Shown: positions 7,551 through 8,573 of the stretch, piece by piece
How positions within the stretch are numbered: position 1 is the first letter of the stretch
Layout: the number at the start of each line of letters is the position of its first letter
Source of the DNA: Thermodesulfovibrionia bacterium
Lineage (GTDB): Bacteria > Nitrospirota > Thermodesulfovibrionia > UBA6902
Assembly (NCBI GenBank): GCA_947258735.1
Contig: CAMYJJ010000086.1
Coordinates: forward strand, 1 to 10,615
Reading direction: 5' to 3'
Length of the DNA stretch: 10,615 bases
Program-made: the position numbers and the translations under genes
The notes under the pieces: model-generated
What the model was told of the DNA's origin: nothing
The model's database searches: none
What the model saw: the letters and a program-made list of their open reading frames with translations, nothing else

Positions 7551-8573
7551 ATGAAACTACTACGCAGGATGTTACTGCTAACAATTGGTGTAATATTAAT
7601 ATTTGCGAGGATATCTATTGCACAGACAGTGACCGGCATCCGCGACTTGCCGGTCATGTATGGCCCGGGGGGAGGTGTAGATGTATCCATAGCTGTTGAT
7701 GTAGATGAGGCAAATGCTCCCAATGGAGTGATTGTGAATGAATATATACCCGCTGGATGGACAGTCAATACCACTAATCCCGATCCGGACTCAACATCTG
7801 ATGGAAAGATCAGCTGGTTATTCTACGATAGTGTAACTGATACAACGATTACATACAGTCTTTCAGTCCCTGCAAACGAAAGTGGCATGATAAATTTCAA
7901 TGGGGAGATAAAATATATCAAAGACGATGCTGAAATCACAGAGACTATAAAAGGGGATACAGCAACAGAGGAGGCTGCAGGATGTGTTCCTACAGAAAAT
8001 TCTGAGGCCACTTGTGACGATGGACTTGACAATGACTGTGATGGCGCTGCAGATAATGCTGATAAAGATTGCAATAATCCGCCATCTGTTCCTCAACTTT
8101 CATATCCAGCAAATAATCAATTGAATGTAGAAACAACAGTTGAATTTAAATGGAATAAGTGCTCTGACGCTGATGGTAATGCACTTACTTATGACCTATA
8201 CATATGTGAAGATAATACAATGACAACAGGATGCATGAATAAGGAAAACATAGCATCTCTTGGGAATATCCGCGTTTATTATGCCGGGATGGGTGCCGGA
8301 CTCTTTCTGTTCGGGATAGTTTTTGCAGGAGGAATGAGTAACAGGAAGAAGATGGCGCTGCTTTTAGCAATGATGATAATTGTTATGCTTTCAGTTTCTT
8401 GCGGCAGCAGCGGTGGAGGTGATGGTAATGGCGATAATCCTCCTCCAAGTAATGAAATTGTTCAGGTTGTATCGGGATTAAAAGCAAACACAGTATATTA
8501 TTGGAAAGTGATCGTAGATGATGGCAATGGTGGAACAGTTGAAAGTAGTGTGAGGAGTTTTACAACTAAATAA
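7551..8573 (+). CDS. Secreted protein: DUF11-like domain, MopE-type motif, and FN3 domain split by a membrane hairpin
   Basis: A 340-residue protein, function unknown. ATG 7551 is chosen because GGGAAGGAG lies upstream (7533-7541) and it opens a clean signal peptide (MKLLRRMLLLTIGVILIF, cleavage near SIA-QT). An ATG at 7482 is in frame but would bury the signal 23 residues deep.

Residues about 26-140 are a DUF11-like beta-sandwich shared with the C-terminus of the preceding gene. Residues 145-174 (CVPTENSEATCDDGLDNDCD and onward) fit the MopE-type putative metal/calcium-binding motif. Residues about 177-233 are the first half of a fibronectin-III-like domain (VETTVEFKWNKCSDADG, LTYDLYI). The second half is at about 303-340 (VSGLKANTVYYWKVIVDDG, ending SFTTK). 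Between the halves lie two hydrophobic segments separated by NRKK and ending in SVSCGSSGGG.

The topology is consistent with both FN3 halves outside the cytoplasm. It is the last gene of the unit, with no obvious terminator after it. Confidence 0.8.
   Translation: MKLLRRMLLLTIGVILIFARISIAQTVTGIRDLPVMYGPGGGVDVSIAVDVDEANAPNGVIVNEYIPAGWTVNTTNPDPDSTSDGKISWLFYDSVTDTTITYSLSVPANESGMINFNGEIKYIKDDAEITETIKGDTATEEAAGCVPTENSEATCDDGLDNDCDGAADNADKDCNNPPSVPQLSYPANNQLNVETTVEFKWNKCSDADGNALTYDLYICEDNTMTTGCMNKENIASLGNIRVYYAGMGAGLFLFGIVFAGGMSNRKKMALLLAMMIIVMLSVSCGSSGGGDGNGDNPPPSNEIVQVVSGLKANTVYYWKVIVDDGNGGTVESSVRSFTTK
8247..8450 (+). other. Membrane-hairpin / lipobox-like insert within the FN3 domain
   Basis: This stretch encodes about 68 residues that do not belong to the FN3 fold. 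It holds a Gly-rich hydrophobic helix (GMGAGLFLFGIVFAGG, residues 246-261), a basic turn (NRKK, 264-267), a second hydrophobic helix (MALLLAMMIIVMLSVS, 268-283), and then Cys284 followed by GSSGGGDGNGDNPPP. The basic turn would face the cytoplasm, putting both FN3 halves on the same outer side. The end resembles a lipoprotein signal (LSVSC-GSS), but Ser at -3 departs from the usual Leu/Val/Ile. AGGAGG (8327-8332) precedes in-frame ATGs at 8334 and 8352, so internal initiation cannot be excluded, although the spacing to the first is only 1 nt. Confidence 0.65.

Follow-up and report, generated by a model that had tools for sequence, protein, structure and literature searches.

The gene at positions 7551..8573 of the window, a 10,615-nt stretch of DNA from the contig of a Thermodesulfovibrionia bacterium, encodes a putatively exported protein that ends in one FN3 domain split, according to a predicted model, by a membrane hairpin. 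Inside this one folded domain lies a predicted site of lipid attachment, and perhaps also of cleavage, for which the anatomy is well supported and the chemistry is what we infer from it. The hairpin-split layout is real and recurring, and on balance we regard it as a portable module, with an internal lipoprotein signal, that anchors exported proteins to a membrane near their C-terminus. The module is lightly named, was undescribed in the open-licence literature that we searched, and the window protein is a divergent example of it.

Layout of the protein and the split FN3 domain

The open reading frame extends from 7482 to 8573 on the forward strand (363 residues), with a likely start at ATG 7551 (residue 24), upstream of which the sequence reads GGAAGGAG. 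The protein begins with an N-terminal signal peptide (MKLLRRMLLLTIGVILIFARISIA, 7551..7622) of type I-like character without a lipobox, seen in the sequence and overlapping a predicted helix (20-40). It is followed by an N-terminal beta domain with predicted strands and the motif NEYIPAGW (7623..7970), which is similar in the relatives P0003 and P0013 and by eye also resembles P0012 and the end of the upstream ORF at 6474-7451. This EYIPxGW domain appeared by eye to be common to the two neighbouring genes (6474-7451 and 7623-7970) and was present in P0013, with P0012 as a related form. An acidic Cys repeat (CDDGLDNDCDGAADNADKDC, 7983..8072) matched the model NF033662 below its cut-off (E 1.9e-5, 24.3 bits, cut-off 41). 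The near-identical protein P0002, from another record, lacks 17 residues spanning the end of the repeat and the first FN3 strand, a gap that could reflect either a true deletion or a difference in assembly.

The module itself starts with the N-terminal half of the FN3 domain (8076..8252), as placed by alignment and the predicted model. The predicted model and conservation then define a first, Gly-rich transmembrane helix, TM1 (8280..8333), with the family motif YAGxGxG...LFG...AGG. A basic loop, MSNRKK (8334..8351), is predicted to be cytoplasmic from its sequence and charge count, and a second helix, TM2 (8352..8399), looks like the hydrophobic stretch in a lipoprotein signal peptide according to the lipobox analysis and the predicted model. 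Cys307-Gly308 (8400..8405) is the predicted internal lipidation site, based on its lipobox context and its recurrence. A Gly/Ser/Asp/Pro linker recognized by sequence and conservation (8406..8453) leads to the C-terminal FN3 half (8454..8570; NEIVQVVSGL, YYWKVIVDD and SSVRSFTT), which was placed by a Pfam scan and the predicted model.

Both flanks of the hairpin were joined into one FN3 fold in the predicted model, and we conclude from the model that one FN3 domain is split by a membrane hairpin. The preliminary description of this DNA had proposed such a domain, with a hairpin and a Cys-Gly segment between its strands and an N-terminal signal for export, and each of these features was recovered here in the sequence or the model. 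The geometry of the hairpin is unsure because the pLDDT of the helices was 59-79 by block. The Pfam fn3 model (PF00041) did not match the window protein at E<=1, and the C-terminal halves of 8 of 10 modules matched fn3 positions ~42-84 below cut-off. Searching solved structures by sequence gave no match at E<=1. Foldseek with the full-length model produced long, poor superpositions, many of them on tandem FN3, and the module alone was therefore used for structure comparison. An FN3 domain divided at its CD loop can assemble again from the fragments (PMC11666773); the split in the window module falls in a later loop.

The layout of the module, read from sequence and model, suggests a topology. 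The N-terminal signal peptide would start export, TM1 would halt it with the basic loop staying cytoplasmic, and TM2 would pass back out, so that both FN3 halves would lie outside and could fold together.

Recurrence of the module and related families

Protein searches yielded 161 proteins including the query, with one search listing 120 of 153 matches. An insert confined to this genome, which the preliminary description had named as grounds for dropping its idea, is not what was seen: a hydropathy rule found a hairpin near the C-terminus with a Cys in 129 of the 161 proteins among the matches listed (window included). Genome contigs scanned with the family alignment A2 gave 80 loci among the matches listed, of 212, and 39 of these 80 carried an open-frame hairpin near the C-terminus. 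Record titles of the 39 loci named Nitrospirae, Nitrospiraceae, Thermodesulfovibrio, Troglogloeales, Deferribacteres, Geobacteraceae, Desulfuromonadales, Deltaproteobacteria and SAR324, and also Gammaproteobacteria including Ectothiorhodospiraceae and Woeseia. That the layout arose from a fusion of two genes, or from an assembly or sequencing artefact, is practically excluded: L104 and L105 are partial copies and L106 is a frame of chimera-like make-up, but the same joint recurs in open frames on separate contigs at the 39 loci among the matches listed, and we consider this reading refuted for that reason. Partial matches in genomes G074, G059, G086 and G198 (L104, L105, L106 and L130) were considered as a natural two-gene version and rejected; each had the look of a decayed, fragmentary or chimera-like copy or lay at the end of a contig, and none is used as evidence here. 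Locus L043 is apparently the same contig as L104, and a frame in L106 (1083-2042, reverse strand) resembles, by eye, an acyl-CoA ligase at its start and closes with a lipobox and an FN3 C-terminal half.

The distribution of the module was scattered and not universal. Module matches (E<=1e-8) were present in 9 of 118 genomes from the phylum to which one Nitrospiraceae carrier belongs, three of them partial only (G059, G074, G086). For the phylum around a Geobacteraceae carrier the count was 6 of 146 genomes, of which three had matches spanning most of the module and the others mainly an FN3 stretch; the centre genome is included in both counts. Eleven carrier genomes contained 20 near-full matches, with 1-4 in each, plus one fragment. 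With the window protein alone as query no close relative was confirmed in genome contigs, viral contigs or plasmids, and six viral-contig loci retrieved with the family alignment had no hairpin by the open-frame hairpin rule.

Precomputed Pfam domains showed the module on an alkaline phosphatase (P0004), S8 peptidases (P0064, P0113, P0133 and others), a trypsin-like protein (P0041) and SGNH esterases (P0088, P0105, P0119), and beta-propeller and choice-of-anchor D proteins also end in it. Because it stands at the end of such varied enzymes, the module looks like a general portable C-terminal anchor and not like a part of one enzyme. The number of residues after the Cys was 48-87 with a median of 56 (121 unique modules).

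The layout had been thought to belong to no named family, and this did not hold. The NCBIfam model NF058595 (invert_tail), described as 'lipo-invert putative C-terminal anchoring domain', gave a significant match over hairpin and Cys of the window protein (residues 269-319, E 2.1e-5), which at 24.8 bits, or 27.7 bits for the module alone, stayed below the cut-off of 37. P0007, also a split FN3, passed the cut-off with 39.2 bits. The model matched 10/10 first relatives at E<=0.1, 35/37 members of alignment A2 at E<=0.01 and, at E<=0.001, 34/40 members of alignment A4 and 9/10 relatives scanned, with P0004 as the exception. No genome hit exceeded the cut-off (0/10, 0/148 and 0/398 genomes). Weak matches were found in 5 of 14 control genomes as well (E<=1e-3), and four weak genome matches were ordinary N-terminal lipoprotein signals (L125, L126, L093, L097); L123, with 36.6 bits, was another split FN3. 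Profile positions 31-84 fall on TM1, loop, TM2 and Cys, and the C-terminal place is shared, whereas the model's name is silent on FN3 or two chains. No description of the module was found in the open-licence literature, and no paper found there named NF058595. Another NCBIfam model, NF033207 (midcut-by-XrtH), might share with the module a cut in mid-protein, to judge by its name; it matched 2 of 10 relatives weakly, in P0058 on another domain, and we found no paper on it in the open-licence literature.

A second proposal of the preliminary description was that the first helix resembles a CTERM-type tail. The MYXO-CTERM, GlyGly-CTERM and PEP-CTERM systems likewise anchor proteins C-terminally by a helix plus basic residues, and MYXO-CTERM also carries an invariant Cys according to PMC11980579. 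In our module, however, the Cys comes after a second helix and the chain continues into a folded half-domain; in the window protein 73 more residues follow the MSNRKK loop, which thus does not mark the chain end. When TM1 and the basic loop of ten N-terminal halves were compared with NCBIfam (E<=1), eight had no match; of the other two, one hit MYXO-CTERM (10.5 bits, E 0.64, cut-off 20) and one a beta-helix repeat (11.3 bits, E 0.21). A known CTERM tail was rejected as the identity of TM1, no CTERM model having matched meaningfully in the ten halves. Exosortase was over cut-off in 4/11 carrier genomes and 1/14 controls, rhombosortase in 0/11 carriers (weaker rhomboid-like matches occurred in 11/11 carriers and 14/14 controls) and myxosortase in 0/11 carriers, with a weaker match in one. 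A known dedicated sorting enzyme was rejected as well, since, unlike in the CTERM systems, none of these three was constant in the 11 carriers.

It is still conceivable that TM1 and the basic loop form a CTERM-type sorting signal that some further intramembrane enzyme cuts, which would free the N chain from the membrane and leave the C chain lipidated or not. The conserved TM1 motif is compatible with this, as are exosortase-like ORFs (by eye) near the module gene in 2 of 40 loci (L001, L005) and an exosortase ~5 kb from the module on contig 4 of G103. The internal MYXO-CTERM of MXAN_5598, a sorting signal in mid-protein, is moreover proposed to be processed (PMC11980579), but as described there it precedes an outer membrane barrel and OmpA-type domains and not the second half of the same domain. 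Given the model comparison and the inconstant enzymes, we consider such a signal very unlikely. Of the earlier interpretation as a whole, the split FN3, the loop, the second helix and the export signal therefore stood, and the unnamed family and the CTERM likeness did not.

The internal lipobox and its proposed processing

For lipobox counts P0002 (95% like the window protein) was dropped, and the remaining 128 hairpins, drawn from proteins among the matches listed, were reduced to 121 unique ones. A Prosite-like lipobox pattern fitted 112 of these 121, and it fits the window protein, in agreement with the view that the second helix is like a lipoprotein signal. Position -1 was S in 96, A in 15, G in 9 and V in 1, thus S/A/G in 120/121, and position +2 was Gly in 108. 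Ser at position -3 of the window protein had been raised as a doubt on lipidation; relatives have L (69/121), F (15) or likewise S (7) there, and we give the doubt little weight. Among the nine hairpins missed by the pattern, three end in PGC and one (P0006) had been assigned to a later Cys by the script. The positive-inside loop was borne out, K/R exceeding D/E in 121/121 for the ten-residue stretch between the helices that is richest in K/R (mean 3.8 K/R vs 0.12 D/E), where only the scarcity of D/E is independent evidence as this stretch was picked for K/R. From basic stretch to Cys there were 18-24 residues (40 modules), which is the length of a lipoprotein signal peptide. Like a signal processed by Lgt and LspA, the module thus has a basic start, a hydrophobic core, mostly [LF]x[SAG]C and a Gly/Ser linker, but it differs in being internal, after TM1, and a median of 56 residues from the C-terminus. 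In the window protein, the Cys is residue 307 of 363 and hence not part of an N-terminal lipoprotein signal.

Conservation of the Cys in the derived sets is by construction, because the hairpin rules for the 129 proteins and the 39 loci demanded a Cys. When none was demanded it was kept, by eye, in 130/131 proteins among the matches listed (the 129 plus P0103 with and P0053 without Cys) and in 43/44 loci among the matches listed (the 39 plus L015, L023, L045 and L068 with and L030 without). P0053 has Tyr instead, and L030 has no Cys after TM2. Near-full modules from a profile search had it in 19/19 displayed, of 22 that overlap the genome-contig loci, with L117, L120 and L122 left out. Weighted conservation over 167 modules was 0.75 for S306, 0.84 for G308 and 0.58-0.73 for Gly at 309-313, and 1.00 for C307, for which the modules had been selected. 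In TM1 A268 (0.85), G269 (0.61), G273 (0.68), G278 (0.81) and G283 (0.61) were conserved, and TM2 before S306-C307 showed generic hydrophobic positions only (167 modules). This difference suggests that TM2 acts like a signal peptide core and that TM1 is recognized or packed; as a mere stop-transfer helix would not need the conserved residues of TM1, they hint at another factor.

Other Cys were absent from 6 of 40 modules and none had one after the lipobox Cys; a disulfide role was rejected, as there was no constant Cys partner in the 40 modules. The hairpin could be a plain two-helix anchor whose Cys has some other role, given that the topology alone anchors the protein and that P0053 and L030 do without the Cys. 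Its near-constancy when not demanded, the lipobox context with the Gly linker and the missing Cys partner make this quite unlikely. Of the 128 hairpin proteins 116 started with Met, and 98 of these had an N-terminal hydrophobic signal, which contained a lipobox in two cases only; these proteins therefore in practice have their lipobox in the C-terminal module instead of at the N-terminus. Hairpin-less FN3 proteins (P0128, P0132, P0136, P0137 and others) carried a lipobox of the same SCGGGG type at the N-terminus. Just downstream of the module gene in L005 (9103, forward strand) a 143-aa ordinary lipoprotein with the lipobox AACGGGGG and a whole FN3 domain is encoded.

In the mechanism that we propose, TM2 and the Cys would serve as an internal type II (lipoprotein) signal. 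Lgt would put diacylglycerol on Cys307, which we consider quite likely, and LspA would cut just before this residue, for which we see slightly less than an even chance. Processing would thus leave a large N chain and, as a second chain, a short lipoprotein, which the split FN3 would hold together, with the net effect of a secreted protein attached by a lipid near its C-terminus. A point against this is that the substrates known to us for Lgt and LspA carry their signal at the N-terminus. LspA was over cut-off in 10/11 carrier genomes (10/14 controls), Lgt in 10/11 (9/14) and LolA in 10/11 (6/14); G003 had neither LspA nor Lgt in the sequence searched, perhaps from incompleteness. The housekeeping lipoprotein enzymes were the only tested candidates nearly constant in carriers, which is weak support because they are widespread anyway. 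A dedicated neighbour gene was rejected, as the only ORF cluster present in most of 40 loci was that of the module proteins themselves (34/40), followed by a regulator-like cluster in 12/40 loci and others in <=4. The largest cluster (36 loci, 40 ORFs) was chained; the module pattern fits 34 of these ORFs, which come from 34 loci.

Alternatively, Lgt might lipidate the Cys and LspA be unable to cut, so that the hairpin stays whole and the protein is held in the inner membrane by two helices and a lipid. Thanks to the linkers to both FN3 halves, the modelled domain closes even with the chain intact, and we found no paper on LspA or Lgt with internal signal peptides in the open-licence literature. 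However, position -1 is S/A/G in 120/121 unique hairpins, and this residue matters more for LspA cutting than for lipidation; we regard an uncut hairpin as unlikely. Going one step further than lipidation, a self-made two-chain lipoprotein is a tentative possibility, in which LspA would cut inside one FN3 domain, the lipid would be on the C chain and the FN3 would clasp the N chain, so that a protein exported with a type I signal would become lipid-anchored at its C-terminal end; a second cut at TM1 would release the complex to the outer membrane via Lol. By the E. coli sorting rule, Gly at +2 would not keep the lipoprotein at the inner membrane.

If the proposed internal lipoprotein signal is real, the enzymes of lipoprotein maturation can work on a signal embedded within a protein, a single domain can be built from two parts on either side of a membrane hairpin, and otherwise ordinary secreted enzymes of Nitrospirota, Desulfuromonadales and some Gammaproteobacteria would have a C-terminal lipid anchor. 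Annotation tools that check lipoboxes at the N-terminus only would miss the module, and the layout may be an unstudied means of tethering secreted proteins to the membrane.

Neighbouring elements of the window

Upstream in the window, an ORF of 1291 aa (459-4334) matched DUF4215 and, in five stretches, the myxo-type Cys repeat (TIGR02232), and is followed by an ORF with HEAT repeats. Downstream of the module gene, the reverse strand encodes a HepT-like RNase (PF01934, E 2.2e-24) and, next to it, a nucleotidyltransferase (PF18765/PF01909) at 8880-9152 and 9199-9507, and we identify this gene pair (8880-9507) as a toxin-antitoxin pair of the HepT/MntA type. A Y1 (IS200-like) transposase is encoded at 9730-10269 on the forward strand and surrounded by REP-like perfect or near-perfect palindromes (8632-8658, 8680-8707, 9635-9663, 10021-10048, 10276-10303 and 10326-10353), of which one perfect palindrome, at 10021-10048, lies inside the transposase ORF.
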